A DNA stretch of 64,000 nt, from positions 1 through 64,000 of IMG/VR virus record IMGVR_UViG_3300017971_000280. One strand, 5' to 3'. Below, one piece after another: positions 7,496-34,892 of this stretch; within the stretch, counting starts at the first letter, position 1; each line of letters opens with the position of its first letter. The notes under the pieces were generated by a model. It was not told where the DNA came from. It did no database searches and worked only from the letters and a program-made list of their open reading frames with translations. The DNA comes from a virus. The position numbers and the translations under genes were made by a program.

Positions 7496-7530
7496 TCTGC
7501 TCTCCTTTCCATAGTATTCCCACTATTAAG

Positions 7531-7559
7531 ATCTTAGCACAAGCCTAGAAATATGTCAA
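7531..7559 (-). promoter_or_regulatory. Main leftward early promoter candidate
   Basis: On the minus strand: TTGACA (7559-7554), 17-bp spacer, TAAGAT (7536-7531). The spacer and -10 read CTAGGCTTGTGCTAAGATCT, almost identical to the divergent rightward promoter at 8137-8165. This shared block is not found in the other promoters and may be an operator. Confidence 0.8.
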
Positions 7560-8136
7560 GTGTTTTGTTTGGCAGAGATCAAGTGAAGTGGCTCTGTTCT
7601 ACAACACGGCATTGGCTCAGAATGGGTGGGTGTGCTTTGGTTTATAGTCTGTTATCTCACTATACTATATACAAGGCACACACTATACTATTACTTGGAC
7701 ATTGGCTTCATAGAATACGCTAGGTGTAAACAGAGAATAGAACAAGGGTAGAGTCAAGAATGGCACGCAGAACACAGGTAGAACAGTAACGTTTCTCTCA
7801 TGTTCAGCAAACTTTTCAAAGTTGCCGCCTTGTCATGTTCAGCATATGGCACAGAGTATGTTCAGCGTAATGGCTTCCTTGTGTTTTGTATAGTATAGTA
7901 GTGGTATTATTGCCTAGCGGTAATACAAGAAAGGAATGCCACCACCCACCCTGCTGTTCAGCTTAACGGCTGTTTTGCCATACTTAACGTTCTGTTCAGA
8001 AAAACGTGCCATGACCTGCTGTTCTATACTACGGCACTATTGCCATTATTTATTTGCGGCAATTTTGCCACTGGCATTATTGCCTCACATCTCTAAAGTA
8101 CCGCACTACGGATTTTATTCCGCCATAAGAAAACAC
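7560..8136. other. Non-coding divergent control region
   Basis: About 580 bp between two divergent promoters with no convincing gene. It contains TGTTCAGC repeats (7801, 7836, 7859, 7955) and CGGC...TTGCC dyads in its right half, a GTATTA/TAATAC inverted repeat at about 7905-7926, and AT-rich stretches such as TATACTATATAC. This is where transcription changes direction. An origin of replication or operator region is the natural reading, by inference. Confidence 0.6.
7954..8124 (+). repeat. 27-bp repeat array with CGGC-N5-TTGCC dyads, array 1
   Basis: Two full 27-bp units (7954-7980, 8019-8045) start CTGTTC and end GGC-N5/6-TTGCCA. The internal imperfect palindrome CGGCnnTnTTGCC occurs at 7967, 8032 and 8057, as TGGCATTATTGCC at 8072, and as a looser form at 8107-8124. 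A further copy is at 7902-7914. The copies are not equally spaced. Confidence 0.75.
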
Positions 8137-8165
8137 TTGACAAAATCCTAGGCTTGTGCTATGAT
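8137..8165 (+). promoter_or_regulatory. Main rightward early promoter candidate
   Basis: TTGACA (8137-8142), 17-bp spacer, TATGAT (8160-8165), with CTAGGCTTGTGCTATGATCT across the spacer and -10, matching the leftward promoter at 7531-7559. Predicted transcription starts near 8172, three bases before the ATG of the GIY-YIG gene. Confidence 0.85.
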
Positions 8166-8174
8166 CTAGGTAGC

Positions 8175-9379: not shown

Positions 9380-9404
9380 AGAAAGCGGGCATGGCTCGCT
9401 TTCT
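9380..9404 (+). terminator. Probable rho-independent terminator
   Basis: Perfectly pairing 11-bp stem with one G-T wobble: AGAAAGCGGGC (9380-9390), loop ATG, GCTCGCTTTCT (9394-9404), followed by a pyrimidine-rich TCTGTTCTG. It would end the transcript of the genes at 8175-9276. Confidence 0.6.
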
Positions 9405-9405
9405 T

Positions 9406-9597
9406 CTGTTCTGTATTATGGCTACTTTGCCAGAAAGGCAACTTCTGTTCAGTTTATTTTGCCATAATTTTTATTTACGGCATTTTTGCCCAAGATCTGA
9501 GGCTCTTGGCGGTTCAGCATATTCTGCCACTATTGCACTTTACATAACGGCGATTTTGCCTACTTTACATAACGTTGCCGATTACGGCACTATTGCC
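9406..9597 (+). repeat. 27-bp repeat array, array 2
   Basis: Second array of the same repeat family as at 7954-8124. One full 27-bp unit is at 9406-9432, a shortened one starts at 9445 (CTGTTCAG to TTTTGCCA), and the CGGC...TTGCC dyad occurs at 9478, 9548 and 9585, with a T-G-G-C variant at 9419. It lies just after the terminator and before the promoter at 9670. Confidence 0.75.
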
Positions 9598-9669: not shown

Positions 9670-9698
9670 TTGACAAACATAAAATAATCCTTTATGAT
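9670..9698 (+). promoter_or_regulatory. Rightward sigma70-like promoter
   Basis: TTGACA (9670-9675), 17-bp spacer, TATGAT (9693-9698), followed by CTAGATG. Its -10 and downstream bases (TATGATCTAG) match the promoter at 8160. It drives 9906-10535 after a leader of about 200 nt. Confidence 0.75.
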
Positions 9699-9905
9699 CT
9701 AGATGTAAGCTAAAATAAAATATAAGGTTAGGATATGAATTGAATAAAAAAGCTAGGTGTAAAGCAAAAAGTAAGCACCATAAATCAGAGCTAGAATAAC
9801 TAGCAATGCTGGAAGTGAGGTAACCAGCAAGGGATATTGAGACAATACCCTAAAAAGCACTAACAAAAGTGTAACAGTCTTAAAATAAAATTGTGAGGTA
9901 ATAAC
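9699..9905 (+). other. Long untranslated leader with a possible 19-codon peptide
   Basis: A/T-rich leader without a recognised riboswitch. A TTG-started frame at 9740-9799 after AAGGTTAGGA would encode a 19-residue, strongly basic peptide (KKARCKAKSKHHKSELE). The phrase TAAAATAAAAT occurs near both ends of the leader and again at 10590-10600, before the next gene. I see no clear attenuator hairpin. Confidence 0.3.
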
Positions 9906-11025: not shown

Positions 11026-11157
11026 CTTGACATAACATTGCAATCCCGTAGCCCCCGCCCACTTTACATAAAAAACGGGCGTCCAAGCCACGAATTGCGA
11101 TGTTGTGTTGGATCTATTAGTCTAGAAGATTTTTGAAAGTTGCCTCCTGACTACGCT

Positions 11158-12174: not shown

Positions 12175-12220
12175 AAAAAAGTGGTCTAATGTACCACAAA
12201 GCGTTAGTGATCGATCAGGG
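12175..12220 (+). promoter_or_regulatory. 46-bp composite element, copy 1, before the tmRNA
   Basis: AAAAAAGTGGTCTAATG (12175-12191), ten unlike bases, then CGTTAGTGATCGATCAGGG (12202-12220). The same two blocks with the same 10-bp gap occur at 34847-34892, with 35 of 36 block positions equal. It contains the perfect palindrome TGATCGATCA with two GATC sites. It lies 16 bp before the tmRNA gene. A phage-specific promoter or operator is likely by inference. Confidence 0.65.
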
Positions 12221-12236: not shown

Positions 12237-12584
12237 GGGGGTGCGTGGATTCGACAGGGTGTTGAGTATAGATATAAGCAGGTAGTTATGGTACAACTAT
12301 AAAGACCGAAAAAAATAAGTGCAGAACTTAAATTATTCGTAGTCCTAGAAGAAGGATTACTCTTCTTAAACGATGAAGCTGAGGTCGTTAAAGAAGACCG
12401 TTTCTCAGCAGAACCAGTTGAAGCTCTGGCAACTGTCTAGAGAAATCTAGAAAACCTTAGAGTTACACTCCTTACCCTCTTTTCCATTCAGGTGAGTAAA
12501 GTGTATGCTTAGGAATGGAATAAACCTGTAGAAAATATTTATATAGATATTCTGGACAGGGAGTTCGACCCTCCCTCACCTCCA
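12237..12584 (+). ncRNA. ssrA: Transfer-messenger RNA (tmRNA)
   Basis: tmRNA rescues stalled ribosomes and adds a degradation tag. The 5' end GGGGGTG pairs with CACCTCC (12577-12583) in a 7-bp acceptor stem, followed by discriminator A. The 5' D-like segment has GGATTCGACAGGG. The T arm is GGGAG-TTCGACC-CTCCC (12559-12575). CCA is not encoded. A pseudoknot-like pair GGT..TTAT / ATAA..ACC lies before an A-rich stretch and the likely resume codon GCA at 12321-12323, 85 nt from the 5' end as usual. From there the frame stays open for 39 codons to TAG at 12438-12440, ending EALATV, far longer than the usual 8-35. The tag reading is uncertain; the RNA call is not. Confidence 0.93.
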
Positions 12585-12659
12585 CAAAGGCAACGCTTGG
12601 TATAGTACGGTATGGTAATATGCTGTCGTTAACCTTCAATTACGGTAATGGAGACGACC

Positions 12660-13249: not shown

Positions 13250-13609
13250 ATGGACAAAATCGAGAGACGCTACCATATTTACAAAAATGCACCAAAATGT
13301 CCTGACTGTGGAGTACCTATGGCATATTTATATACTCATATAGCTTCAAACAGAAGTGTTTGGAAATGTAGAAAATGTAATGTCAGAGAAGAGGTTACTC
13401 ACGGTTATCCAGAAGACGATGGTGACCCTAGTAAACGGACGATGATATTCGTAGTCACATTAGATTGCGAATATATTATTGTGCCTGGAGATAATTATGG
13501 AGATAGAAGAGTTAGAGAAAATTATCTCAGGTTTAAGGATAAACAAACCGAAATTTCGGGGAGAGGAAGTAGAGAACAAGTCTCTGCCGTTTATGCTCTC
13601 CACATTTAG
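13250..13609 (+). CDS. Zinc-ribbon hypothetical protein, 119 aa, unusual 3' overlap
   Basis: Residues 17-43 contain CPDCG and WKCRKCN separated by about 20 residues, a clear zinc ribbon. The ribosome site is weak (GGCGGACC, nine bases back). The last 113 nt overlap the next gene in another frame. The last 35 residues (basic, low hydrophobicity) read less like a folded protein than the other frame does, so this gene may once have ended earlier. Confidence 0.5.
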   Translation: MDKIERRYHIYKNAPKCPDCGVPMAYLYTHIASNRSVWKCRKCNVREEVTHGYPEDDGDPSKRTMIFVVTLDCEYIIVPGDNYGDRRVRENYLRFKDKQTEISGRGSREQVSAVYALHI

Positions 13610-14081
13610 AGAATTAATAAAAGATGAGATTCCACCAACCCAAGAGGAGTTTATTAATACTTTTAAAACTAAATATCCTGACCTGAAGCTTAGAGGAATA
13701 GTATCGAGATTGAAGAGAGCTTACTTGTCCTACATTCGGGAGTACCATTTAGGGTATCTATTAAAGAAGCACTTCAAGAAGGTTCTATATGACGAAAAGA
13801 CTGATATAGCGGGTGTGGATTATGTAATCTATTATCGTGGTATCAAGTTTAATATTCATGCTTATGTTAACACTGAGAATGGTAAGTACTGGAGAGAAGT
13901 TAAGAATGGTAGACATAAGTTTCGTGGTGAACACTTAGATATACCTATGGATTTAGATAAGGGTAAACGTTGTGGCAAACTCATTCTTTATACAGATGAC
14001 CACGTAAAAAAGCTGAAAGAAGAAATGGGAAAAATTGCTGATAAGAGATACCCTAAAAAGGAGAAAACCAGTGGTCTGTGA
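13497..14081 (+). CDS. Hypothetical basic protein, 194 aa, weak PD-(D/E)XK-like pattern
   Basis: ATG with TGGAG eight bases upstream. The N-terminal 100 residues are helical and basic. The C-terminal half has GVDYVIYYRGIKFNIHAYVN and then YWREVKNGRHKFRG, roughly the D-x(n)-hydrophobic strand-x-K layout of restriction-like nucleases, though the acidic residue before the Lys is not placed convincingly. A DNA-processing role is possible but unproven. A shorter start near 13593 would remove the overlap with the previous gene but has no ribosome site. Confidence 0.6.
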   Translation: MEIEELEKIISGLRINKPKFRGEEVENKSLPFMLSTFRELIKDEIPPTQEEFINTFKTKYPDLKLRGIVSRLKRAYLSYIREYHLGYLLKKHFKKVLYDEKTDIAGVDYVIYYRGIKFNIHAYVNTENGKYWREVKNGRHKFRGEHLDIPMDLDKGKRCGKLILYTDDHVKKLKEEMGKIADKRYPKKEKTSGL

Positions 14082-14139
14082 CATTCTAACAAAAAATTTA
14101 GCTTCGGTTGTGACATTCCGAAAGACCATTGGCAAAAGT

Positions 14140-14202
14140 GATCTTAATAAGATCATAAGATCAGATCTAAACATTGATCCTAACTGATCTATGATCTTGA
14201 TC
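14140..14202 (+). repeat. Cluster of eight GATC sites in an intergenic region
   Basis: GATC begins at 14140, 14151, 14159, 14164, 14176, 14186, 14193 and 14199, within 63 bp. The gap 14082-14216 also has the direct repeat TGTGACATTC (about 14078 and 14110). The right end, TTGATCAGGCAGGG, resembles the right end of the 46-bp element (GATCGATCAGGG). GATC is rare in the rest of the window. Candidates are a Dam-sensitive switch, an origin or an operator. Confidence 0.8.
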
Positions 14203-14216
14203 AGGCAGGGAAGGAC

Positions 14217-14438
14217 ATGGGCGAGGAAATTACCAAACAGGATATAATAAAAGCTTTAAAAAAGCATCGGAGAGAAATCACTTCAATTATCAACGGTTTA
14301 GAACAACTTGATGAGACTGATGACAGGAGTTTTAATCGAGTGGTTGTTCAAAAGATAATATTTACCCTGTTTGAGTTTGTTGATACGTTCGTTGGTACAG
14401 AAATTAATATCCACAATTTTATGAAGAGGAGAGGATAA
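14217..14438 (+). CDS. Hypothetical helical protein, 73 aa
   Basis: ATG with GGGAAGGAC upstream, directly after the GATC cluster. The product is helical: KQDIIKALKKHRREITSIIN, then LFEFVDTFVGTEI. It may be a small DNA-binding or dimeric regulatory protein, but no helix-turn-helix is certain. Its stop overlaps the next ATG. Confidence 0.55.
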   Translation: MGEEITKQDIIKALKKHRREITSIINGLEQLDETDDRSFNRVVVQKIIFTLFEFVDTFVGTEINIHNFMKRRG

Positions 14439-14707
14439 TGGATTGTTATTTGAAGAAAGAATTACCAGAAGAGCACGCAAGTATGCGAGACCCTAGATAC
14501 GAAAATATTGTGTTCATGTGTCCAGTTTTTGAGCGTCAAATTTGTATGTGGTGTTGTCTCCATGTTCGTGATGTTTCAAACCCATTAAGTAGAAACTACG
14601 CTACTGACCACCACCCAACTTATGCTGTTAAAGCACCAGAAATTTCTGGAAGAAATCTTGATAGTATTTGGGAAACTTGTGCTCGTTGTCATAACGTACA
14701 GGCTTGA
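14438..14707 (+). CDS. Cys-rich hypothetical protein, 89 aa
   Basis: ATG preceded by AGAGGAGAGGATA and overlapping the previous stop. Eight Cys: C4, CPVF, CMWCCLHV and at the end CARCHN, which could form two metal sites with nearby His residues. The middle is polar. It ends over the -35 box of the promoter at 14704. Function unknown. Confidence 0.6.
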   Translation: MDCYLKKELPEEHASMRDPRYENIVFMCPVFERQICMWCCLHVRDVSNPLSRNYATDHHPTYAVKAPEISGRNLDSIWETCARCHNVQA

Positions 14708-14732
14708 CAACTAAGGGTTTGTATGGTATAAT
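14704..14732 (+). promoter_or_regulatory. Rightward sigma70-like promoter
   Basis: GGCTTGACAACT, 17-bp spacer, TATAAT (14727-14732) with TATGG before it. The ATG of the following gene (14731-14733) overlaps the -10 box, so a transcript from here starts inside that gene and would mainly serve the ClpP-like gene and the nucleotide-metabolism genes after it. Confidence 0.85.
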
Positions 14733-18888: not shown

Positions 18889-19173
18889 ATGATCTATAAA
18901 TGTGCGATATGCGAAACTAGAATTTATCGTCCCATGCGTTATTTTTGTTGGAGTTGCTATAAACAATTTAGAGATGACATTCGTGAGAAGAAAGAATGGA
19001 CTAAATTTATGGTTAGCGAGGAATCGAAAAGACGGAGACGGGAGATTAATGCCCCCACGTTTGTTTACTTGGGGAATAAATGGGATATTGATATGGAAGG
19101 TAATCTAATTCGCAAGGACGGTTATCGTTATGGGCAGGAAAAGAAAAGGTCAAGAAGTTCAAGAGAAAATTGA
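18889..19173 (+). CDS. Hypothetical zinc-finger protein, 94 aa
   Basis: The first 25 residues have CAICETRIYRPMRYFCWSC: two Cys pairs, a treble-clef-like zinc site. The following region is strongly basic (ESKRRRREIN) and the C-terminus is basic too, suggesting DNA binding. It overlaps the small-terminase candidate by 44 nt. The ribosome site is weak. The 110-bp gap before it has a short AAAGAA/TTCTTT hairpin at 18777-18791 and a TATGAT without a good -35. Confidence 0.55.
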   Translation: MIYKCAICETRIYRPMRYFCWSCYKQFRDDIREKKEWTKFMVSEESKRRRREINAPTFVYLGNKWDIDMEGNLIRKDGYRYGQEKKRSRSSREN

Positions 19174-19687
19174 ACGGTACTTAGAAGAATACGAGCTTGA
19201 TGAACTTAATCAAGCTAACGATATGGCGGCTCTAACTCAAATGTGCCAAATAGAGGTTAATATAGAGCAGATTCAAAAAGCCCTTAGTGATATAAAAGAC
19301 CCGCTAGAAGAATCAAAAAAGATTAGGGAACTTCAAAGCTCTTTACGTGATGCTAACCAGAGTTGGGTATCTTTGCAGACTGAATTAGGTATTAACAGAA
19401 AAAAGAGGCAGAGCGAGAGCGAGGAAAGTCCATTACAGTATATTGAAAGACTTCAAGACCTTGGTAAAAAATTTATAAATGTTAGACTGAAGAAGCTAGT
19501 GTGTCCGAAATGTGGACAAGTTTTGGGTAAGTATTTTTTCTATGTGACTGATAAAGGTGAAAAAGGGTCAATAGAGAGTGAAACTAAACCAATCGAACCA
19601 TATAAATATACCGTTCGTCACGAATGCTGGAAGTGTGGAGAGATGGCTGAAGAGTCTAATGAAGATTTCGTGGTTGTTCAAAGATGA
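19130..19687 (+). CDS. Small terminase subunit candidate, with zinc ribbon, 185 aa
   Basis: It overlaps the start of the large terminase gene by 4 nt, where a small terminase belongs. The N-terminal 110 residues are coiled coil and helices with a basic start (GRKRKGQEVQEKIERYL). The C-terminal third has CPKCGQVLG and HECWKCGE, a zinc ribbon. Small terminases bind packaging sites and form rings. The zinc ribbon is not typical, so this is a positional call. Confidence 0.6.
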   Translation: MGRKRKGQEVQEKIERYLEEYELDELNQANDMAALTQMCQIEVNIEQIQKALSDIKDPLEESKKIRELQSSLRDANQSWVSLQTELGINRKKRQSESEESPLQYIERLQDLGKKFINVRLKKLVCPKCGQVLGKYFFYVTDKGEKGSIESETKPIEPYKYTVRHECWKCGEMAEESNEDFVVVQR

Positions 19688-21276
19688 AGGAAAAAGTAAC
19701 ACTTAGCGAGGGAGACCTAGCTGTATTAGAGATAATGGAAGACCCTGTTCTATTTAGTGAGTTCATCAGAACCACTGATGAGGAGATAGACCAAGGTATG
19801 GGTTGGCATTATGACAACTACCAACGAAAAATGTTGATTGATAGCTCTAATTACATTAGTATAGCCACTGGTCGTACTACTGGTAAAACTGCCAGCATGG
19901 AGACCAAAATTGTTCATACTGCTGTTTCAAATATGTACAAGAAAGCTAGTGCTAATGAGATATTATTGGTAGTTCAGAACAAATCACAGCTAGAACCAGT
20001 GTTTTTGCGTCTTATTAACTTTTTCAGACGACATCATTTATTAAAACACTTTGTTGATAGATTTGGTGTTAACATGTCAAGTCATGAGATAAGACTTTTG
20101 AATGGTGCTTTGATAAGGTGCAGAATTGTTGGTTCTACGGCAGATAGCAATGTTATTGGTCTTCACGTTCCATGTATATATGTTGATGAGGGTCAGGTGT
20201 TCAACTATACGGCATGGAATTCTCTAATGCAGTGTTTGACCACGTGGGATGAAGGGTTTAACTTGTGGGTTAGCGGTGTTCCGAATGGTCTTCGTGAGAA
20301 GAACGTTTTATTCGAATGTGACCAATTAGATGAAAAATTCTCACGTCATAACGTGTCAAGATTAAGTAGTGTTAGATACACGAAGGAACAGCACGCTTTT
20401 GACCTTAAACAGTATGGTGGAGAAAACGGTGATGACTACGTTCACTTAGTTCTTGGCGAACATGGCTCACCAGCTTTCTCAGTGTTTGATAGAAAATTGA
20501 TGCTGATAGAGGATTATCCTGTAACGGTGTCTATTTTAAATAATGTCTCCTTAGAACAACACGGTGGACAGTACAACGAACTTCTAAGAGCACCAGACCT
20601 GTCTGCTGATATACAGAAGAAGCACGATTTGATAATAGCTGGAATAGATGCTGGTTTTTCTAATGACCCCACTATCATTACTATTTTGTGGAGAGATAGG
20701 GAATCTTTAGTATGGAGAGAATTTGTTCGGTTTGAATTGAGGAGAATTAAGTATCCAATACAAGCTAAGATAATTGACTGGTTGGATACAATCTATAGAT
20801 TCAATATGATAACTATTGATGCTGGACACTCTGGTTTAGCATTATGTCAAATTCTACAGGATGACACTGGAGAGTTTAAGGGTAAGAATTTTATTAAGAG
20901 ATTAATTCCAGTTGACTTCCAAGCAAATGTTGTAACTGGATATGATGAAGATGAGAAAGAGATAAAAGATAGGGTAAGGAAGTTTACAATCCAGACATTA
21001 CAGAAGTGGAGTCAAAACGACCAAATCATTGCTTTTAGTTCACAGGATGATGATGTTATTTCAGAACTTGAGAGAGTTGGGTTCACTAGAGACATGCTTG
21101 GTCAACCTAAGTTCTTTGTATATTCACCACAAGGTGGACAGAAAGGTGAAGACCACTTATTAGCTTCACTGCTAACGTGGGTGTATGGATATTATTATAA
21201 GTATTACTCTCCTGAAAAACCAAATAGTAAGGGTAAATATAGTGATTTAGCCAAGGGTGGTTGGTTTGTTCGGTAG
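19684..21276 (+). CDS. terL: Terminase large subunit, 530 aa
   Basis: DNA packaging motor and nuclease. Walker A is GRTTGKT (63-69), Walker B CIYVDEGQ (164-171), followed by a coupling motif region WVSGVPNG. The C-terminal nuclease has three acidic sites: AGIDAGFSNDP, MITIDAGHSG and KGEDHLLAS, as in RNase H-like terminases. The length is typical (450-600). It is co-translated with the gene before it and precedes the portal gene. Confidence 0.95.
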   Translation: MKEKVTLSEGDLAVLEIMEDPVLFSEFIRTTDEEIDQGMGWHYDNYQRKMLIDSSNYISIATGRTTGKTASMETKIVHTAVSNMYKKASANEILLVVQNKSQLEPVFLRLINFFRRHHLLKHFVDRFGVNMSSHEIRLLNGALIRCRIVGSTADSNVIGLHVPCIYVDEGQVFNYTAWNSLMQCLTTWDEGFNLWVSGVPNGLREKNVLFECDQLDEKFSRHNVSRLSSVRYTKEQHAFDLKQYGGENGDDYVHLVLGEHGSPAFSVFDRKLMLIEDYPVTVSILNNVSLEQHGGQYNELLRAPDLSADIQKKHDLIIAGIDAGFSNDPTIITILWRDRESLVWREFVRFELRRIKYPIQAKIIDWLDTIYRFNMITIDAGHSGLALCQILQDDTGEFKGKNFIKRLIPVDFQANVVTGYDEDEKEIKDRVRKFTIQTLQKWSQNDQIIAFSSQDDDVISELERVGFTRDMLGQPKFFVYSPQGGQKGEDHLLASLLTWVYGYYYKYYSPEKPNSKGKYSDLAKGGWFVR

Positions 21277-21290: not shown

Positions 21291-22802
21291 ATGGCAAAGA
21301 AGGATGAAGAAAAAACAACTAAAGTAGCTACTGGAGAGCTAAGTCCAGGTAAACTGGTTAAAGCGGCAGTTAATGTTTTGACAGACCCAACTCAGACTGG
21401 CTTGTTGTTCACTGAAGAAGTGGACAAAATGGAGATACCTAAGCAGTATCACAAGTTGATAAAAACATGTAGGTTCTTTTACAAGCGTGACCCGATTGCT
21501 GGTACTGTTTTGAACAAGATGGTGGATTGTGCCATTACTCCTCTATCAAACAGGAAGTCGGAGTGTACTGATGAGGAGTACGAAGTATATAACGCCCTAA
21601 CTGAGATGCTTCAGGAGTTCTTCAGAAATGTGTGTCTAGAATATTTGCTTTCTGGTTTGGTTATTCCTCATTACGAGTGGGTAAGAATGAGAGGTAGTGA
21701 CCTTTCTCAGAAGTTGAATTCTAGACGTAGGGTGACTGTTCCTGATAATATTTGGTTCAGAGACCCCGCAACGGTGACCGTCAAAAATTCAGTTATTCCG
21801 AATAAGAAATATTACTATGTTGATGTTGACGCAAGGACTATATCCTTTATCAAGAATAAGGGTAAATATCCTGACGGTACGGTTGACAAGGAAACGTATG
21901 AGGAATTGTTAAGAAATTACCCCGCATTTGTAAAGGCAATTCAAGAACTAAAAGGTACTAAGATGCAGATTAAACTGGAGGATATTAGACCGATTCTTGC
22001 GAAAACACTTCCAGAGGACGCATATCCAATACCTTACATGGAAAATGCTTTGGAGTCACTAATTCATAAGAGAAATCTTAGGAAAATGGACTATGCGATT
22101 GCGTCTAGGGTGGTTTCATCTATCCAATTGATTAAGTTGGGTAGCGATGAGTTCCCATGTACTGATGAGGCTGATTTTGACCATATAAAGAATCAGATGA
22201 ACTATAGAACTTCTACAGGGTATCAAGAGCGTGTTTATCAATTGTTTGCAAACCATACTCTTAATATTGAGTGGGTATTTCCTGATACACAAGCAATGAT
22301 TAACACTGAGAAATATCGTGCTGTAGAAGATGATATAATTGCGGCATTCGGATTTCCTAGAACATTGATTACTGGTGAAACTTTAAGGTCTAATGTTCAA
22401 GGTGGTTCTGATTTTGCGGCATTTTCTCCTATTGCTACTATGGAAACAATAAGAGACAGATTACTTGAGTGGACTAAGGAATTATATAAGGAAATTAGAG
22501 ATAAGAATGAGTATATCAAGAATTACCCTATGCCTCAGTTCACACCTATGAGACTTTACAGACTACTTGACCTTAATATTATTGGTCAATCTCTATACAT
22601 GGAGGGTAATATTTCAAGGAAATCAAGACAGGAACTTGTTGGTCTTGACTTTGATACTGAAATTGAGAGAAAAGCCGAGGAAGAGAAGAGGATGAAGGAA
22701 TTAGGTATACCAGAAGCACCCGAACTACCGTTCTCTTCACCGCAGATTGGTAATCCTAACCAAAGGAGAGGAAATGAAAACAAGGATGAACCTACAGGAT
22801 AA
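21291..22802 (+). CDS. Portal protein, 503 aa
   Basis: Directly follows the large terminase, in the standard position. The family trait of a long polar protein with a central helical core is present, with LLSGLVIPHYEW and VFPDTQAMINTEKYRAVEDD matching portal-type patterns, and GETLRSNVQGGSDFAAFSP typical of portals of siphoviruses. Portals form the dodecameric ring at one capsid vertex through which DNA passes. The start at 21291 follows GTGGAG; an earlier in-frame ATG lies inside the terminase gene. Its last 29 nt overlap the first glyco gene. Confidence 0.85.
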   Translation: MAKKDEEKTTKVATGELSPGKLVKAAVNVLTDPTQTGLLFTEEVDKMEIPKQYHKLIKTCRFFYKRDPIAGTVLNKMVDCAITPLSNRKSECTDEEYEVYNALTEMLQEFFRNVCLEYLLSGLVIPHYEWVRMRGSDLSQKLNSRRRVTVPDNIWFRDPATVTVKNSVIPNKKYYYVDVDARTISFIKNKGKYPDGTVDKETYEELLRNYPAFVKAIQELKGTKMQIKLEDIRPILAKTLPEDAYPIPYMENALESLIHKRNLRKMDYAIASRVVSSIQLIKLGSDEFPCTDEADFDHIKNQMNYRTSTGYQERVYQLFANHTLNIEWVFPDTQAMINTEKYRAVEDDIIAAFGFPRTLITGETLRSNVQGGSDFAAFSPIATMETIRDRLLEWTKELYKEIRDKNEYIKNYPMPQFTPMRLYRLLDLNIIGQSLYMEGNISRKSRQELVGLDFDTEIERKAEEEKRMKELGIPEAPELPFSSPQIGNPNQRRGNENKDEPTG

Positions 22803-23727
22803 GAAAATTCTAGTCACTGGTGGTAAGGGTTTTTTGGGTCAATGGGTAATAAAAGAACTTATTGCTAATGGAGCAAAGGATATTACCATACCCGATTCTT
22901 CAAATTGTGACCTGAGAGACGAGAATAACTGCTATAGAGCTATGGTTGATGCAGATTTGTGCATCCACTTAGCGGCACGTGTTGGTGGTATTGGACTTAA
23001 TAATGCCAAACCTGCCGACCTGTTCTTCGATAACATGAGTATGGGACTTAATATGATTCATCTCGCCAATATACTAAAATTGGAGAAGATTCTTGTGGTC
23101 GGAACGATATGTGCCTATCCTAAGTTCACTCCCGTACCATTCAAAGAGGAAGACTTGTGGTGTGGTTATCCAGAAGAGACAAACGCACCTTACGGTATCG
23201 CAAAGAAATCATTATTAGTCTACCTGCAAGCTTGTCGTAAGCAGTATGGTCTTAATGGTATATTTTTACTACCAGTAAATCTATATGGACCTGGTGATGA
23301 CTTTGACCCTGAAAGTTCTCATGTCATTCCTGCACTAATAAAGAAAGTGTACGATGCACGTGAAGCTAATGCAGACCATATTGATGTATGGGGTACTGGC
23401 AAAGCCACTAGGGAATTTTTGTATGTTGAAGATTGTGCTGAAGGGATTGTTAAAGCCCTAATAAACTACGATAAACCAGACCCAATCAATTTAGGTAAGG
23501 GTTTTGAAATATCCATAAAGGATTTAGTAGATAAAATAGTGTCATTGATGGAGTTCAAGGGTGAAGTTATTTGGGATACCTCTAAGCCAGATGGACAACC
23601 TAGAAGGATGTTAGACACAACAAAGGCAGAACAAGAGTTTGGATTTAAGGCAAAAACTTCATTCGATGAAGGACTGTTAAAGACTATAAGGTGGTATGAG
23701 AGTGAAAAAAGAAGTAGTGCTATCTGA
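22774..23727 (+). CDS. fcl: GDP-L-fucose synthase / GDP-4-keto-6-deoxymannose epimerase-reductase, 317 aa
   Basis: Short-chain dehydrogenase family enzyme that converts GDP-4-keto-6-deoxymannose to GDP-L-fucose with NADPH. It has the Rossmann motif GGKGFLG (16-22), then GTICAYP (110-116), carrying the epimerase Cys, and Tyr140/Lys144 in YGIAK, plus GQPRRMLD near the end, a hallmark of this enzyme. The length is normal. The start follows AGGAGAGG and overlaps the portal gene by 29 nt, so it is read with it. Its substrate is the product of the dehydratase at 25383. Confidence 0.93.
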   Translation: MKTRMNLQDKKILVTGGKGFLGQWVIKELIANGAKDITIPDSSNCDLRDENNCYRAMVDADLCIHLAARVGGIGLNNAKPADLFFDNMSMGLNMIHLANILKLEKILVVGTICAYPKFTPVPFKEEDLWCGYPEETNAPYGIAKKSLLVYLQACRKQYGLNGIFLLPVNLYGPGDDFDPESSHVIPALIKKVYDAREANADHIDVWGTGKATREFLYVEDCAEGIVKALINYDKPDPINLGKGFEISIKDLVDKIVSLMEFKGEVIWDTSKPDGQPRRMLDTTKAEQEFGFKAKTSFDEGLLKTIRWYESEKRSSAI

Positions 23728-24922
23728 GGATAACTTTATTAGTAGTAGTAAGCATGTCTTTAAGCTGGATGGTAAGATGTACAGGGGGTATGACAATGCT
23801 CATGCTCCAGACATTAGAAGTTTTATATTTAACTTGGAGAGACTATACGATTTAGGTCTAGTTCGTACTTCTATAGCTCCACTTGTTTCTAAAGAATTTG
23901 GTCTGATTTTAGAGCACGAAACTATTGATTTTATTACGTATCGTGAAGAATGGACTAATAAAATGTTTTTGGATGCGGCAATTATGATGATTGACCTGCA
24001 AACAGAGCTAGTTAAGAATGAGATGTGTTTGTATGATGGACACGCTTCTAATGTTCTGTATGATTACACCAGACCAGTATTTATTGATTTGGATTCAATT
24101 ATACCATTATCAGGTTCAATAGCGTGGTTTAATGGGTTTTATCCCCAATTTGTGAAGACACTCGCTCAACGTAGTAATCAAGACCCTAGTTATTGGTATG
24201 AGTTGATAGAGAAGACAATAAATTCCCCCAAGTCAAAAGGCAGTGCCTCAGCTTGGCAAGACGCATTTTTGGATTTGCTGATAGAGACTCGTAGCTGGTT
24301 CTCCAGCATGAGTGTTAACGAAAAGATTACACCTTGGAGTACTTATACTCAACCCACAGCAGAGTTGACTAATAATAAGCAGAAAGTAACAGCACAACTT
24401 CTTAACAGGATATATTCTGATGGTATGACACTATTTGACGTGGGTGCTAACGAGGGATGGTACTCAAACTTTGCTTGCAATATTGGGTATCGTGTTGTGG
24501 CAGTTGAGATAGATGAGCAATGTATGACCAAGTTATATCTACAAGCTAAAGAATCAAATGTAAAGATTTTACCATTAGCATTTAATTTCTTACATCCTTG
24601 GCAAGCTCATCCTCCATACATGGATGCTATTGATAGATTGAAGTGCGAAGTGTGTCTAGGATTGGCTGTGGTTCATCATATGGTATTTTCACAGAAGTCA
24701 ACGTTTCCTGAGATTGCTTCCAAATTCAACGATTTCTCAAAGAAATATGCTATTGTTGAGTTTCCACCAGAAGATGATATTTTTGTGCATAATTGGGTTA
24801 CACCTGAAACTAACTGGTATAACTTAGATAACTTTATTGCTGAGATGTCAAAATATTTCCCCAAGCATGAGGTATTTGACTCACACCCAAAACCAAGGAC
24901 AATAATCTTATTTGAAAAGTAA
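23696..24922 (+). CDS. Fusion of a kinase-like domain and a SAM methyltransferase, 408 aa
   Basis: N-terminal residues 1-210 include YDGHASNVLYD and PVFIDLDSI, the D-G-H..N and D-L-D catalytic and metal-binding patterns of aminoglycoside/choline-kinase-like enzymes. The C-terminal half starts LFDVGANEGWYS, the SAM-binding glycine motif I, followed by an acidic loop (VAVEID) typical of Rossmann methyltransferases, and LGLAVVHHMV. The pair suggests a modified sugar or lipid acceptor in this cassette. Substrates unknown. Related joined proteins occur in sugar loci (NoeA-like), which I note from memory only. Confidence 0.7.
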   Translation: MRVKKEVVLSEDNFISSSKHVFKLDGKMYRGYDNAHAPDIRSFIFNLERLYDLGLVRTSIAPLVSKEFGLILEHETIDFITYREEWTNKMFLDAAIMMIDLQTELVKNEMCLYDGHASNVLYDYTRPVFIDLDSIIPLSGSIAWFNGFYPQFVKTLAQRSNQDPSYWYELIEKTINSPKSKGSASAWQDAFLDLLIETRSWFSSMSVNEKITPWSTYTQPTAELTNNKQKVTAQLLNRIYSDGMTLFDVGANEGWYSNFACNIGYRVVAVEIDEQCMTKLYLQAKESNVKILPLAFNFLHPWQAHPPYMDAIDRLKCEVCLGLAVVHHMVFSQKSTFPEIASKFNDFSKKYAIVEFPPEDDIFVHNWVTPETNWYNLDNFIAEMSKYFPKHEVFDSHPKPRTIILFEK

Positions 24923-24932
24923 AGGAGAGGAT

Positions 24933-25382
24933 ATGTACATTGAAGAAGAACTTTATAAGAAATTTGTGGATTTGATGCCTATTGCATGTGTTGATGTTCT
25001 TATACATGATGATGATGGCAATATACTTCTTGTAAAGAGAAACCAAGAACCAGCTAAGGACAAGTGGTGGGTTATCGGTGGTAGGTTATTAAAAGAAGAG
25101 ACAATGCCAGAAGCGGCGGTACGGAAAGCTAAGGAAGAGGTTATGTTAGATGTTGAGGTTGAAAAGTTTATTGGTGTCTATGATGAATTCTTTGATACCA
25201 GTATTCAAGGATTCCCAACTCATACAGTCTGTGTCGCTTTTTTAGCTAAAGCAAACAACTTACTGATGGCTGACGTTGACTACACTTGTGACGGCTTTAA
25301 AGTTGTCAATAGTGTTGACGACAGTTACGACCCATATGTTTTAAGGGTCATAAAAGATAGTGGAATTTTGGAGAGGAAGTAA
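24933..25382 (+). CDS. Nudix hydrolase, GDP-mannose mannosyl hydrolase-like, 149 aa
   Basis: The altered Nudix box at 49-69 begins GGRLLKEETMPEAAVR and continues with KAKEE. It lacks the first Glu at the position seen in ordinary Nudix boxes, as in GDP-mannose mannosyl hydrolases. Those enzymes cleave GDP-mannose to GDP and sugar and help to tune sugar-nucleotide pools. DKWWVIGGRL also fits this subgroup. It lies between fcl and gmd genes, which supports GDP-sugar as substrate. ATG at 24933, after AAAGGAGAGG. Confidence 0.8.
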   Translation: MYIEEELYKKFVDLMPIACVDVLIHDDDGNILLVKRNQEPAKDKWWVIGGRLLKEETMPEAAVRKAKEEVMLDVEVEKFIGVYDEFFDTSIQGFPTHTVCVAFLAKANNLLMADVDYTCDGFKVVNSVDDSYDPYVLRVIKDSGILERK

Positions 25383-26450
25383 ATGAAAAAAGCTTTAATT
25401 ACAGGAATTACAGGACAAGATGGGTCATATCTTGCTGAGTTACTTTTGTCCAAAGGATATGAAGTTCATGGGATAATAAGAAGGGCTAGTACCTTTAATA
25501 CTGGTAGACTTGACAACATTTATGTTGACCCTCATACACCAGGTGCAAGGTTGTTCCTGCATTATGGTGACTTAACAGATTGCGAACAGATTTCTAACAT
25601 AATCTACAATGAGCATCCAGATGAGGTTTATCATCTAGGAGCACAGAGTCACGTTAGGGTAAGTTTTGATTGTCCAGAGTATACTACTAATGTTACTGCA
25701 TTAGGTACTACTAGGATACTGGAAGCCATACGAAGAAGTAAGAGTGAAACAAAGTTCTATCAGGCTTCTAGTAGTGAAATGTTTGGTGCTTCTACCCCAC
25801 CACAGAACGAAGATACAGCATTTAAACCTAGGAGTCCATATGCGTGTTCTAAGGCTTATGCGTACTGGATGGTTAAGAACTATCGAGAGGGGTATGATGT
25901 TTTTGCGTCTAATGGCATCCTATTTAACCATGAAAGTCCACGTAGAGGCGAAACTTTCGTAACTAGAAAGATTACTAGAGCTATTGCTAATATCTTAAAA
26001 GGAACTCAGGATAAACTTTATCTTGGTAACCTTGAGGCAAAAAGAGATTGGGGATATTCTCCAGAGTATGTTGAGGGAATGTGGCGTATTTTACAACATG
26101 ACAACCCTGATGATTTTGTTCTAGGTACTGGTGAAACGCACAGTGTTCAAGAGTTTGTTCAAGCGGCATTTGCATACGCTGGACTCGATTGGAAGGACTA
26201 TGTTGAGATTGACCCACGTTACTTTAGACCTACAGAAGTTGAAGCTCTGCAAGCTGATGCTTCTAAAGCAAAAGAGTTATTAGGATGGAAACCTAGAATT
26301 GCTTTTAAGGAAATAGTGTGGATTATGGTTGATTCTGATATGCAAGGAGTAGGTTTAAGCCCAATTGGTCAGGGAATCAAGGTTATAGAGAACAAATTTG
26401 ATTGGCATGTATGGGACGGTGCAGGAAAGGTGGTTTTCTATGGAGATTAG
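25383..26450 (+). CDS. gmd: GDP-mannose 4,6-dehydratase, 355 aa
   Basis: Converts GDP-D-mannose to GDP-4-keto-6-deoxymannose, the branch point for fucose, rhamnose and perosamine. NADP-binding [11 protein letters not shown] at 8-18, the catalytic SSSEMFG (129-135), Tyr153 and Lys157 in SPYACSK, and [16 protein letters not shown], a signature of this enzyme. Length and motif order are normal. It begins directly after the Nudix gene stop. Confidence 0.95.
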
Positions 26451-26880
26451 GCGTCTAGACTATGAGCACATTGACGGATTAATTGACCTCTATGAATTTA
26501 ACGAAAAAGAGTTTGGACGTTTCACACCTCATCCTTTCACTAGAGAGTCACTGACCAAAATCATAAAAGAGTCCGTTCTCGACTTGTTCTATGTGGCTGT
26601 GTTTAACTCAACAATTATAGGATACACCATGTTGAGGGGAATGGATGAGGGATATGCTGTCCCCCGACTTGGTATAGCTGTTGATAAAGGTGTTTATGGT
26701 ACTGGTGTAGCTACTACGTTAATGGAACATCTTGAAGCTACTTGTAGACTTCGTGGTTATAAGGAAATTAGTCTCAGAGTTTACAAAGACAATCCTAGAG
26801 CATATAATTTCTATATAAAATTAGGATATGACTATAGACCATACGATAATGAGTCAGTGTTGGGGTTTAAGGAGCTATAA
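26440..26880 (+). CDS. GNAT-family N-acetyltransferase, 146 aa
   Basis: Acetyl-CoA-dependent transferase. The cofactor site is at [17 protein letters not shown] (a variant of the R/Q-x-x-G-x-G/A motif A), then [13 protein letters not shown], the usual motif B ending of GNAT proteins. The start at 26440 overlaps the gmd gene by 11 nt. In a locus with a DegT aminotransferase, N-acetylation of an amino sugar such as GDP-perosamine is a plausible job, but the substrate cannot be read from sequence. Confidence 0.8.
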
Positions 26881-27110
26881 TGGACATAAGCAAAAAGTCT
26901 ATAAGCATGTTGATTGATGAATTGATTACTACTAATATTAAGTGTTGGTTTGCTCAGGAGAGGTTGATGTCAGCTACCAATGACCATGATGTGGCTGAAG
27001 CGGCAAGGGATGCACAATCGCTTAACGCACGAAGAAATGCTCTTATGAGGGCGATTGATGAAATGTTAGGTCAGGGTAGTATAACATTAACGGAGAAGTC
27101 GTATGGATAG
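26880..27110 (+). CDS. Small helical protein, 76 aa
   Basis: ATG overlaps the previous stop. The product is one helical hairpin: MLIDELITTNIKCWFAQERL, then SLNARRNALMRAIDEMLG. The R-x-x-L-x-x-x-I-D-E ending recalls short DUF4254-type proteins that occur in sugar-nucleotide loci. Function unknown; it may be an accessory subunit. Confidence 0.55.
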   Translation: MDISKKSISMLIDELITTNIKCWFAQERLMSATNDHDVAEAARDAQSLNARRNALMRAIDEMLGQGSITLTEKSYG

Positions 27111-28131
27111 AAAGAAAATATTCATGTATGCCACACAGAGTAAGTTAGTTGAGGAAGAATCTTTTCTATTTCACAAACTAGGTTTTGATGTTTATACAGC
27201 GGCGTGGGCAACTGACCAGACTACTCATTTTAGGGGATATAAGGACTATAACCCAAACCACTTCTATCAAGGTAAATGTGATTTTCTAACTGATGATGAG
27301 ATTAATGTATTATCAAAGGTTGATGTTAGTTGGGACAAGCTACCAACAGTTTCAACAAGATATGTTCCCGAAGTTAGAGATGTCTTATTGGATAAGTTTG
27401 ATATACTGTACGTAATAGCACCTACTCCTTGGTTGCTGTATGGTGAGGACTTTCTTAAAGCTGGTAAGAAGGTAGTATTCAGACCCTTTGGTTATGCTCC
27501 TTATACGTGGGGGAAATCAGTAGACATATCTGTATTGTCTAATTATGAAGATTTCCATGTGGTTACTTGTACTCCATATGATGTAAAGCATTACAAAAAC
27601 GTGTCAACAGCGATAACTATGGTCAACAAAGACCTTATTTTAGACCCTGCACCACAGGGTGACCACATATTTACCATTTTCCCGATTGTTAATGGTCAAA
27701 TAAAGAACGACCTTGCAATCAAACTCAATGCTTTAAAAATTCCTTGGGTATTACATGAGTACCACTATGAGTGGAAGTCTAGTGTAGACATGGATAAGTT
27801 GTTTAGCTCTAGTGTTCTATATTTTGATTTGAACTCGATGGTCAGGTATCCCATCTTGGAAGCAATGGCACATGGCAAAGCTGTTGTTATGAGGGGGAGC
27901 TTATCTCCCAAAACACCACAAGCATTCGTTTTCTTGGTTGATGCTGGACTAGACCCAACTATACCGTGTTATTATAAGGATTTTGGTAATGCTCCAAGTG
28001 TAGTAGCTAAATTATATGCAAGTTCTGAGCTTAGAGATAGAGTTGCTACTGTCCAAACAACGTGGTTAGATTCTATGATAGATAAGGCGATTGAGGTATG
28101 GTCTAGAGTATTGGAGGTTAACAATGGGTAG
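27103..28131 (+). CDS. Glycosyltransferase-like protein, GT-B type, 342 aa
   Basis: The C-terminal half has YPILEAMAHGKAVVMRGSL, the EAMAxG-K-x-V motif of GT-B transferases (GT4/GT1) that contacts the nucleotide sugar. The N-terminal domain has alternating strands and helices (DILYVIAPTPWLLYG). It lies between the amino-sugar genes and a methyltransferase, so it probably transfers a GDP- or UDP-sugar. No signal peptide: it acts in the cytoplasm. Confidence 0.7.
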   Translation: MDRKKIFMYATQSKLVEEESFLFHKLGFDVYTAAWATDQTTHFRGYKDYNPNHFYQGKCDFLTDDEINVLSKVDVSWDKLPTVSTRYVPEVRDVLLDKFDILYVIAPTPWLLYGEDFLKAGKKVVFRPFGYAPYTWGKSVDISVLSNYEDFHVVTCTPYDVKHYKNVSTAITMVNKDLILDPAPQGDHIFTIFPIVNGQIKNDLAIKLNALKIPWVLHEYHYEWKSSVDMDKLFSSSVLYFDLNSMVRYPILEAMAHGKAVVMRGSLSPKTPQAFVFLVDAGLDPTIPCYYKDFGNAPSVVAKLYASSELRDRVATVQTTWLDSMIDKAIEVWSRVLEVNNG

Positions 28132-28828
28132 ATTTTATGGACAATGGAATCCACCAGTAGACAAGGTTCTTTATGATAATTACTTCACTGATGTTAGAGA
28201 TGGTTACTTCATAGACTGTGGAGCGGCTGAAGGGGCTTTATATAGTAATACTAAATTCTTCGATGAAACTATGGGTTGGAATGGTATTTGCATAGAGCCA
28301 TCAGTGGCATTTGAGCAACTTGTTGTTAATAGACCAAGAGCAATTAACTTGAATATCGCCCTGTCCGATAAGAATGGTGTCATTGGTTTCACTGAGGCAG
28401 TACACGCAAAGGGACACAACGTTCCAGGTTTACCACCAGGTGGCTCAATTCATTATAACGATATTCCATTGCTTAAAAATGAAATTGGACGTTGGGGATA
28501 TATCTTCACTGAGCGTGAAGTTGAGACATTAACTTACAAGTCATTAATTGATAAGTATAGTGTAGATAAGGTTGACCTTTTAGTTATTGATGTAGAGGGT
28601 CACGAAATGGCGGTTATTAGGGGGATAGAAGGAGCATTAGTAATGCCTAGCGTTGTTTGTGTCGAATACCCTATAACTGGTATAAACAAAATAACAAGAG
28701 CTTTGCTTGAATTTGGGTATCGGTTTGATTTCATGAGTTTTAATAACGCTTTCTTTTCAATCGGATTTCCTGAGAAGGAATGGACTGGTACTACAGATAA
28801 GTGGGGAACTTGTTATCAGGAGGATTAG
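28124..28828 (+). CDS. FkbM-family methyltransferase, 234 aa
   Basis: The SAM-binding motif YFIDCGAAEGALYS is near residue 30, followed by an acidic loop (GICIEP). Later there is VDLLVIDVEGHEM, the VDVEGxE motif typical of FkbM methyltransferases, which O-methylate sugars and polyketides. ATG at 28124 after GGAGGTTAAC. It probably methylates a sugar hydroxyl made by this cassette. Confidence 0.85.
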   Translation: MGRFYGQWNPPVDKVLYDNYFTDVRDGYFIDCGAAEGALYSNTKFFDETMGWNGICIEPSVAFEQLVVNRPRAINLNIALSDKNGVIGFTEAVHAKGHNVPGLPPGGSIHYNDIPLLKNEIGRWGYIFTEREVETLTYKSLIDKYSVDKVDLLVIDVEGHEMAVIRGIEGALVMPSVVCVEYPITGINKITRALLEFGYRFDFMSFNNAFFSIGFPEKEWTGTTDKWGTCYQED

Positions 28829-28829
28829 T

Positions 28830-29912
28830 GTGATACCATACGCAAAACCTTTTTTGAGTGGTAAGGAAGTAGAATATGTGGCTGATGCTGTAGCATCTAC
28901 TTGGATTTCTGGTGGTAAGTATCTTAATAAACTAGAAGATGAATTATCTGATATTTTAGGTAAGCGTGTTCTAACTACATCTAACGGTACTACTGCTATT
29001 CAACTAGCTTATTTAGTTGCGGGGCTTAAAGCTGGTGATGAGATAATAGTTCCAGGATTCACTTTTATGGCTGTGGCAAATTTGGCATTGCATGTTGGTA
29101 TAAAACCAATTTTTGCCGATGTTGATTTTCATACTTGGTGTGTTACTGCTAAGAACATAGAGAAGAAGCTAACCAATAAGACCAAAGCTATTGTTCCTGT
29201 TCACACTTATGGGAATGTGTGTGATATGGATGAGATAGTAAAACTAGCGTCCCGTAATAATATTATAGTGATAGAGGATGGTGCTGAGGCTTTGTTCTCC
29301 AAGTATAAAAATAACTATTGTGGTACTTTCGGAGAGATAGGTACTTTCAGTATGCACGCTACTAAAACTATAACTACTGGAGAGGGTGGTTTTGTGGTTT
29401 GTGATGACTCATTAACTGAAGTGATGTCTTTATATAGGAGTCATGGGTTATTGGAACGTGGTTCGTATGACCACCTAGTAGCAGGACATAATTTTAGGTT
29501 AACTAATATACAAGCGGCTTTGGGGTGTGCTCAGTTAGAGAATATAACTACTATACTTGCAGAGAAGAATAGAATTCTTAGTGTCTACAGGTCTCGTTTA
29601 GAAAATATAGATGGGATATACTTGCAGGAGTACAGACCAGAAGTTGACCCCGTTGTGTGGGTAGTAGCAGTTAGACTTGATGACTTAGCGTTTCCTCAGA
29701 GCAGGGATGGGGTGCTCAAGCAACTTAAAGCGGCAGGTGTAGAGGCTAGACCAGGTTTTGTAGCGTCCAGTAAGCTTAAATATTTCGCACCACATAAATT
29801 ACCAGTGTCGGAGGAGTTGAGCAGAACTGTGCTTAGTCTCCCAACATACCCTGATTTAAAAAACGAAGAAATACATCAAATTTGTGATGTTTTAATCGAG
29901 GCAAGGAGTTAA
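28830..29912 (+). CDS. DegT/DnrJ/EryC1 aminotransferase, perosamine synthase-like, 360 aa
   Basis: PLP-dependent sugar aminotransferase. The Schiff-base lysine is K179 in SMHATKTITTGEGG, with IVIEDGAEA (147-154) holding the cofactor Asp150 and SNGTTAIQLA near the phosphate-binding site. The family converts 4-keto-6-deoxy sugars to amino sugars. With GDP-mannose dehydratase beside it, GDP-4-keto-6-deoxymannose to GDP-perosamine is the likely reaction. The substrate is inferred from context. GTG start, preceded by AGGAGG. Confidence 0.88.
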   Translation: MIPYAKPFLSGKEVEYVADAVASTWISGGKYLNKLEDELSDILGKRVLTTSNGTTAIQLAYLVAGLKAGDEIIVPGFTFMAVANLALHVGIKPIFADVDFHTWCVTAKNIEKKLTNKTKAIVPVHTYGNVCDMDEIVKLASRNNIIVIEDGAEALFSKYKNNYCGTFGEIGTFSMHATKTITTGEGGFVVCDDSLTEVMSLYRSHGLLERGSYDHLVAGHNFRLTNIQAALGCAQLENITTILAEKNRILSVYRSRLENIDGIYLQEYRPEVDPVVWVVAVRLDDLAFPQSRDGVLKQLKAAGVEARPGFVASSKLKYFAPHKLPVSEELSRTVLSLPTYPDLKNEEIHQICDVLIEARS

Positions 29913-29913
29913 T

Positions 29914-31182
29914 ATGAGAAAGTGTAGAATTTCTGGTGATGATTTAGTTCCCCTTTTTACATTGGGTGACTTGTATGTATCAGACTTCATTCCCCAAAAT
30001 GAAGAACCAAATAGAGATAAGTATGAATTGAAGCTCATGCTTTCTAGAACGTCAGGTTTGGTTCAGTTGGAACATGCACCACCTTTAGATTTAATGTATG
30101 GCAAATATTGGTATAGGTCAGGAATAAGCAATACAATGAGAGCGGAGCTTAAAAATATAGCTGATTCTTGTATTGATGCTATTCATCCTGAAGATGGTGA
30201 TGTATTCTTGGACATTGCTAGTAATGATGGTACATTATTAAGCTTTGTTCCTGCTAATATAATTAAAATAGGAATTGACCCTGTAGAGGGTTCGTTTCAG
30301 GACGATGCTAAGAAGTATGCTGATGAGGCTATTCAAGATTACTTTACAGCAGACGTTTACAAAGCTGGTAGGTATGGTGGTAAGAAAGCTAAAATAATTA
30401 CCGTTATTGCTATGTTCTATGACCTTGAGGATTCAGCATCATTCTTAGACGATATTGATGAGATAATGGACGATGATGGTTTACTTGTTCTACAACTTAG
30501 TTACACTCCTCTAATGCTTCAACAGTTAGCTTTTGATAACCTTTGTCATGAACACATTTGTTATTATTCTTTGTCTTCTATGAAATACTTATTAGACCGT
30601 AAGGGTTTTAAGATATTAGACTGTCAACTGAACGATACTAATGGTGGTAGCTTCAGAGTCTACATTATGAAGGACAAGGGAGATGAGACTAAATTTAGGA
30701 CACACCCCTACAGAGATGTTGCTAAATTTAGAGTTGAGTCAATATTGGAATATGAACGTAAGTTAAAGTTGAATGAACCAGAAATCTACCTTAATTTCTA
30801 TAAAAAGGTGTGCGAGCTAAAGGATAATACTGTATCATTTATTAAACAGGAAAAGGATAGAGGTAAATCCATTTGGGGTTATGGGGCGTCTACTAAAGGT
30901 AATACTCTACTACAGTGGTATGGACTAAATGAGACACACATAGACGCTATCGCTGAAAGGTCTACGTTCAAATACGGATTAAAAACAATAGGTAGTAACA
31001 TTCCTATTGTTTCTGAAGCAGAGATGAGAGAGGCACAACCTGATTACTTGCTTGTTCTCCCTTGGCACTTTGTTAAAGAGTTTAAACAGCGAGAATGCGA
31101 ATATTTGAACAGGGGTGGTAAATTTATTATTCCTTGTCCAGCTTTTTATGTCATGTCTGATAAAGGGGTGGAGTATGACTAA
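29914..31182 (+). CDS. Sugar C-methyltransferase, TylCIII/NovU-like, 422 aa
   Basis: Three-domain layout of sugar C-3/C-5 methyltransferases: an N-terminal zinc-like domain, a central SAM domain (VFLDIASNDGTLL) and a C-terminal domain with DTNGGSFRVY and GYGASTKGNTLLQW. HEHICYYSLSS is a conserved active-site stretch. Such enzymes methylate a carbon of 4-keto-6-deoxy sugar nucleotides. The N-terminal domain has only CRISG where family members usually have CxxC pairs, so the zinc site looks lost. It follows the aminotransferase by a one-base gap. Confidence 0.85.
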   Translation: MRKCRISGDDLVPLFTLGDLYVSDFIPQNEEPNRDKYELKLMLSRTSGLVQLEHAPPLDLMYGKYWYRSGISNTMRAELKNIADSCIDAIHPEDGDVFLDIASNDGTLLSFVPANIIKIGIDPVEGSFQDDAKKYADEAIQDYFTADVYKAGRYGGKKAKIITVIAMFYDLEDSASFLDDIDEIMDDDGLLVLQLSYTPLMLQQLAFDNLCHEHICYYSLSSMKYLLDRKGFKILDCQLNDTNGGSFRVYIMKDKGDETKFRTHPYRDVAKFRVESILEYERKLKLNEPEIYLNFYKKVCELKDNTVSFIKQEKDRGKSIWGYGASTKGNTLLQWYGLNETHIDAIAERSTFKYGLKTIGSNIPIVSEAEMREAQPDYLLVLPWHFVKEFKQRECEYLNRGGKFIIPCPAFYVMSDKGVEYD

Positions 31183-32994: not shown

Positions 32995-33004
32995 CGAGGC
33001 TGAA

Positions 33005-34846: not shown

Positions 34847-34892
34847 AAAAAAGTGGTCTGATGGCGTACTTTTCGTTAGTGATCGATCAGGG
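34847..34892 (+). promoter_or_regulatory. 46-bp composite element, copy 2, before the head protease candidate
   Basis: AAAAAAGTGGTCTGATG (34847-34863), ten unlike bases, CGTTAGTGATCGATCAGGG (34874-34892). Same layout as at 12175-12220. It lies 50 bp before the ATG at 34942 in the gap 34810-34941, where a GCCC-GTTT-GGGC hairpin (34909-34920) also occurs. An in-frame ATG at 34861 lies inside the element and would be an unlikely start. Confidence 0.65.

Follow-up and report, generated by a model that had tools for sequence, protein, structure and literature searches.

Known GATC-dependent systems

Dam-sensitive promoters with GATC at the -10 position exist, the IS10 transposase promoter being of this type. 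The phage promoters described here resemble them in having GATC across the -10 hexamer of a promoter of sigma-70 type, but they form a clade-wide set whose orthologues in sister phages read TATAAT, and they are accompanied by an eight-site GATC block. Single GATC-sensitive promoters are already known; here GATC occurs across a clade at several early -10 boxes, in a putative tmRNA promoter, and in the many-site block.

Packaging in phage P1 requires Dam methylation at pac (PMC12707154), a site that resembles our locus in packing GATC words closely within the genome of a large phage. The block studied here differs in lying away from the small terminase gene, in not matching the P1 hexamer, and in having GATC promoters alongside. 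The replication origins oriC, that of the P1 plasmid, and ori2 of Vibrio cholerae place GATC within AT-rich DNA that adjoins short direct repeats (PMC5043065, PMC2865523), as is also seen here, but at our locus there is no cluster of DnaA boxes, no initiator gene was recognised, and the skew minimum is elsewhere. Finally, phiX174 has no GATC, and phage GATC avoidance has been linked to mismatch repair as well (PMC5014478). Our phage shares the strong depletion in coding sequence, but many Type II palindromes are missing too and conserved control sites retain GATC.

The window and its relatives

The window, by which we mean the whole 64,000-base stretch analysed, comprises positions 1-64000 of a 71,274-bp IMG/VR virus record and belongs to a tailed phage, with genes for a terminase, a head maturation protease, ribonucleotide reductase, and replication proteins. 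Within the structural gene region lies a block of sugar-nucleotide and glycosyltransferase-like genes (22747-34809). Four IMG/VR relatives are 134-153 kb long, from which we infer that the window represents about half a genome. No near relative was found among 50,697 phage records, and the relatives used for comparison are IMG/VR contigs, several of them fragments. A search for terminase relatives in genome contigs, aimed at the host, found none, and other matches were only remote. An exact 15-mer scan over viral contigs was too unspecific, with 119 or more chance-like matches. The whole case is built on comparative sequence. In what follows, G000 is the window's phage, L144 is G009, L141 is G008, and L005 and L015 are counted together.

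GATC avoidance

GATC is strongly depleted in the window. The sequence-only reading had estimated by eye some two dozen sites where about two hundred were predicted, and the exact figures bear this out: there are 25 sites in 64,000 bases (strand is immaterial because the word is palindromic), against 177-226 expected. Base composition predicts 226, a first-order Markov model 205, and a second-order model 177, while 20 dinucleotide shuffles of the window contained 190-233 (mean 211), so the depletion holds against both kinds of background (25 versus 177-211). All eight positions within 63 bp were confirmed exactly, as were seven further sites named in that reading (7530, 8163, 9696, 12209, 12213, 34881, and 34885). 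The proposed enrichment in non-coding DNA was also recovered, with coding and non-coding fractions taken from a crude gene set: 13 of the 25 sites fall in the 7.4% of sequence that is non-coding (binomial P = 4e-9), and the enrichment persists after clustered sites are collapsed to loci (P = 0.005).

GATC is not the most avoided word. CCGG, CGCG, GCGC, and GGCC have no copies in the window, where 30-60 of each are expected, GCAGC/GCTGC is absent, and many six-base palindromes are absent too. Avoidance of Type II sites in the window is therefore very broad. Among relatives the degree of GATC avoidance varies: observed over expected counts are 0/547 in G002, 1/377 in G008, and 0/39 in G010, compared with 44/425 in G001, 37/191 in G003, 192/520 in G007, and 43/43 in G009. 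This variability, together with the missing palindromes, fits host-specific restriction pressure and is in line with the external, restriction-type pressure that had been suggested. It had likewise been suggested that genes avoid GATC while control sites keep it. The kept sites do prove to be conserved control positions in relatives, which makes GATC-directed control plausible.

Early promoters with GATC at -10

The ordinary promoters of these phages have a clear TTGAC(A/T)-N17-TATAAT form. The relevant sites in the window are as follows.

7526..7559, minus strand: early leftward promoter TTGACA-N17-TAAGATC, with GATC at 7530-7533
7577..7580, no strand: another GATC, lying upstream of the leftward promoter and also present in G003 (35734)
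8137..8166, plus strand: early rightward promoter TTGACA-N17-TATGATC; TATGATC in G001, TATAAT in G002
9670..9699, plus strand: early promoter of p9906, TTGACA-N17-TATGATC; TAAGATC in G001, TATAATT in GATC-poor G008
11111..11114, no strand: GATC within conserved TTGTGTTGGATCTATTAG, kept in G001 and G003; G002 is without GATC
14704..14732, plus strand: contrast case, a GATC-free promoter of the ordinary type (TTGACA-N17-TATAAT) that is conserved in both G001 and G002

In the window, three early promoters depart from this form and finish with TAAGATC or TATGATC. G001 has three early promoters with GATC and G003 two, and across the clade the -10 forms with GATC are TATGATC, TAAGATC, and TACGATC. 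The departure from TATAAT at these promoters is precisely what creates GATC. Orthologous promoters in G002, G007, and G008 read TATAAT, TATACT, or TAAGATA, none with GATC. One orthologous promoter displays the swap directly, with AATCCTTTATGATC in G000, AATCCTTTAAGATC in G001, and TATCCTTTATAATT in G008.

Eight of the ten early promoters of the clade have GATC at -10 and two do not. Among the roughly 34 remaining promoters of these genomes there is none with GATC (Fisher P = 3e-7), nor is there any among about 10 orthologous early promoters in G002, G007, and G008 (P = 7e-4); since promoters were classified by eye from lists, these P values are indicative. G007 tolerates 192 GATC sites, yet has neither the block nor GATC promoters, which points to a link between these two features that is independent of avoidance.

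Two other promoter-related patterns were noted in the window. Near-identical 59-nt consensus promoters of the form TTGACA-N17-TATAAT occur at 11206, 11508, 14696, 60059, and 60166 on the plus strand and at 613, 2519, and 4493 on the minus strand. The divergent early control region (7594-8100 and 9391-9500) contains many short repeats of the type TGTTCAGC..ACGGC..TTTTGCCAT.

A GATC-bearing element and the tmRNA gene

GATC also occurs on the -10 position of a repeated 46-bp element, one copy of which precedes a tmRNA gene. Taking the early promoters and this element together, GATC-free sisters have TATAAT or TATATAAT at these places.

12175..12220, plus strand: 46-bp element copy 1, TGGTCT-N16-TTAGTGATCGATCAGGG, 17 nt before the tmRNA gene; G010 has TTAGTATATAATAGGGG there
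34847..34892, plus strand: second copy of the 46-bp element, ahead of the gene at 34861, with GTAGTATATAATTAGAGG at the corresponding site of G002
12237..12587, plus strand: phage tmRNA gene (Rfam RF00023, 112.6 bits, E 6e-44)

The element was judged in relatives by direct comparison. Its GATC form, TTAGTGATCGATCAGGGG, stands against TTAGTATATAATAGGGG in G010 at copy 1 and GTAGTATATAATTAGAGG in G002 at copy 2. Based on its location, we place copy 1 as a putative tmRNA promoter; in L002, G001, and G003 the element comes after the p11680 gene and does not directly precede the tmRNA. The tmRNA gene was missed by ARAGORN and left unnamed in the sequence-only reading, and it is present at the same place in relatives.

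The eight-site block

The block lies in a short intergenic gap between two genes of the same orientation.

13479..14081, plus strand: p13479, a conserved 200-aa neighbour with 56-88% identity among relatives
14077..14086, plus strand: direct repeat TGTGACATTC, copy 1; copy 2 is 32 nt on, and a TGACATT pair is kept in several relatives
14109..14118, plus strand: direct repeat TGTGACATTC, copy 2
14082..14216, no strand: intergenic gap p13479/p14217, position conserved in all relatives
14135..14154, plus strand: most conserved core, AAAGTGATCTTAATAAGATC; (A)TCTTAATAAG persists without GATC in L139 and L014
14140..14202, no strand: eight-GATC block, by exact count, with homologous blocks in relatives
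14217..14438, plus strand: p14217, 73 aa, first gene behind the block

The eight sites (14140, 14151, 14159, 14164, 14176, 14186, 14193, and 14199) compare with 0.022 expected in 63 bp at the genome's own GATC rate, and none of 5000 dinucleotide-preserving shuffles of the 135-bp gap reached eight or more. The gap is syntenic in every relative that covers it, and it contains 6 GATC sites in L002, 6 in L004, 5 in L005/L015, 9 in L011, and 7 in L144/G009, next to the 8 of the window. Single sites turn over among relatives and the total stays steady and high, and in G000, G001, and G003 the block is the densest GATC window of the genome. A core, AAAGTGATCTTAATA, is nearly invariant across the clade, and GATCATAAGATCAGATC is common to the window, L004, and G009. 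The spacers are 86% A+T. Flanks and spacings are loose, and the two bases beside each GATC are AT-rich like the spacers.

The view that the cluster exists only through avoidance elsewhere does not survive comparison with the distant relative G009, where GATC is at expectation (43/43) and the homologous gap still has seven sites. The block therefore needs no avoidance and is selected in its own right. On a ribonucleotide-reductase tree it occurs in the window's clade and in the separate G009, a distribution that may reflect an old trait since lost in some lineages, two separate origins, or transfer.

Where GATC is missing, the gap is AT/TATA-rich or GTAC-rich. L139 and L014 keep (A)TCTTAATAAGGTC with GATC gone, the gaps of G002, L208, and L145 are TATA-rich, and that of G002 is its genome's densest TATA window. 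The gap of G008, a phage with one GATC in 134 kb, is that genome's densest GTAC window, with five sites in 55 bp at 93656-93707 (oriented); the genome-wide expectation of such a cluster is about 9e-4, uncorrected for the 16 words examined. G007 and L203 have mixed gaps, with three GTAC plus GATC in G007. Replacement of GATC by GTAC in the block is suggestive only. Rossellomorea phage phiT1, which has a p13479 homologue, contains no comparable block. A T4-type late promoter, TATAAATA, was considered and rejected, as it occurs in some sister gaps and not at other gene starts.

How the GATC sites may be read

Across these genomes, comparison identifies GATC itself, and not a hairpin, as the conserved unit, and finds GATC words in the places that TATA words hold in sister phages. 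We infer that a GATC-reading factor acts on these control regions. The explanation that we favour, tentatively and as something just short of probable, is a clade-wide GATC-coded promoter regulon of which the block would be the largest operator or opening region, read most likely by adenine methylation. The block would then be the clade's version of a conserved AT-rich control region before the rightward operon that starts with p14217, with transcription from the gap as an assumption. In the block and at some of the promoters, GATC words occupy positions where sister phages have TATA/TATAAT words, which melt easily. In the simplest model a GATC-specific reader is involved, most likely in the form of adenine methylation, the GATC methyltransferase being that of the host or of the phage, and strand opening or polymerase binding would depend on methylation state. 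This state would separate early from replicated DNA, or a home from a foreign host, and the eight-site block would be the strongest such switch.

Methylation is favoured as the reading mechanism because only four bases are constrained, with flanks and spacings loose, and because methylation alters the ease of strand opening. Methylated adenines in the 13-mers of oriC are expected to favour strand separation (PMC5043065), and a stabilising effect on DNA is ascribed to GATC clusters that are hemimethylated or unmethylated (PMC493266). A Dam-family gene (PF02086) was not found in G000 (half a genome), G001, G003, or the other cluster-bearing records searched (several of them fragments), and PF02086 occurs only in G008, a phage with a GTAC-type gap. 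The sole methyltransferase of G001 (N6/N4) has an orthologue in this same GTAC-type phage, and its best solved-structure matches, to enzymes of the GANTC/GATC and N4C types, are confined to the conserved C-terminal motif. It also counts against the favoured explanation that no good sigma-70 promoter was found in the block, where the best candidate has 9 of 12 matches, and that two of the clade's ten early promoters are without GATC.

A bolder version of the methylation reading holds that the clade recoded the -10 and opening words of a defined set of control regions from TATA-type to GATC and purged GATC from its genes, making expression or opening methylation-dependent, and that GTAC substitutes in sister blocks, so that the control word tracks the modification landscape of the hosts. 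We regard this version as speculative and on balance rather unlikely. More generally, a phage clade with GATC placed in this way at promoters and in the block would provide a natural test of DNA modification as a viral control signal and not merely a shield, with the orthologous pairs of TATGATC and TATAAT promoters as ready-made experiments.

The main rival to methylation is a GATC-binding protein. A sequence-specific protein, such as a phage repressor or activator or a nucleoid protein, would read the same regulon, occupying the promoter sites one at a time and the block cooperatively, with methylation uninvolved, a possibility that we take seriously while considering it unlikely. GATC over the -10 box is a classical position for a repressor, the sites show homotypic clustering with turnover of single sites, and the other words used by sisters (five GTAC in G008; three GTAC plus GATC in G007) look as if reader specificity had changed. 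Streptomyces has a GATC-binding nucleoid protein, Gbn (PMC9239103). However, comparison of G001 with GATC-free genomes revealed no clade-specific DNA-binding gene (small or unannotated genes could escape such a comparison), and the loose AT-rich neighbours would leave the protein a site only four bases long.

The sequence-only reading had named an origin as plausible. We find it improbable that the gap is a replication origin with iteron-like TGTGACATT repeats beside an opening region and GATC as in oriC or the P1 plasmid origin. An AT-rich opening region with short repeats is indeed present (86% A+T spacers; two TGTGACATTC repeats 32 nt apart), TGACATT pairs are kept in several relatives, and the gap is AT/TATA-rich in GATC-free relatives. 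The GC-skew minimum, however, falls at the divergent early promoters, left of the gap by about 6 kb in G000, G001, and G003 and about 8 kb in G007 (skew also tracks gene direction). The window has 80 DnaA-box-like sites where chance predicts 88, with no cluster at 14.1 kb, there is only one direct-repeat pair, and GATC at promoters would be left unexplained.

We consider it still more doubtful that the block serves as a P1-like pac site, where methylation would control cutting by terminase. The dense block itself, its location on the genome's terminase side, and the differing points at which complete relatives begin, as circularly permuted genomes would, are consistent with packaging. The block is nevertheless about 5 kb from the terminase genes (large terminase 19684-21276, likely small subunit 19130-19687), and it is missing in close relatives whose large terminase is 81% identical. 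The P1 pac hexamer is TGATC(A/G), which fits one of the eight sites, 14199 (TGATCA), the others being TGATCT, AGATCT, or TGATCC. GATC at promoters is not accounted for by packaging either.

It is very improbable that the block is a relic or accident, that is, a palindromic AT-rich leader, RNA hairpin, or chance product with no GATC-specific function: GATC-rich leaders do fold well as RNA (z -1.3 to -3.0), but this signal vanishes once the spacers are shuffled around fixed GATCs (combined z -0.1), which traces the folding to the GATC words alone and led us to reject an RNA or DNA hairpin, GATC-free relatives do not fold, and conservation and clustering are well past chance.

Neighbouring genes and insertions

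The gene upstream of the gap, p13479, is highly conserved and matched no database family. Its product weakly resembles the PD-(D/E)XK nuclease fold (PspGI, Hjc, RecU, and VRR-NUC; Z at most 5.4, E at least 0.02), with N-x-H where this fold expects E-x-K. We considered p13479 as the GATC reader and rejected it, as it is well conserved but unchanged across the GATC/GTAC switch, and its fold is weakly nuclease-like. Open reading frames for homing endonucleases of HNH- or LAGLIDADG-like type are inserted in the gap beside the block in three or more relatives (L005, 4426-4626; L140, 6600-7000; L147, after 212).
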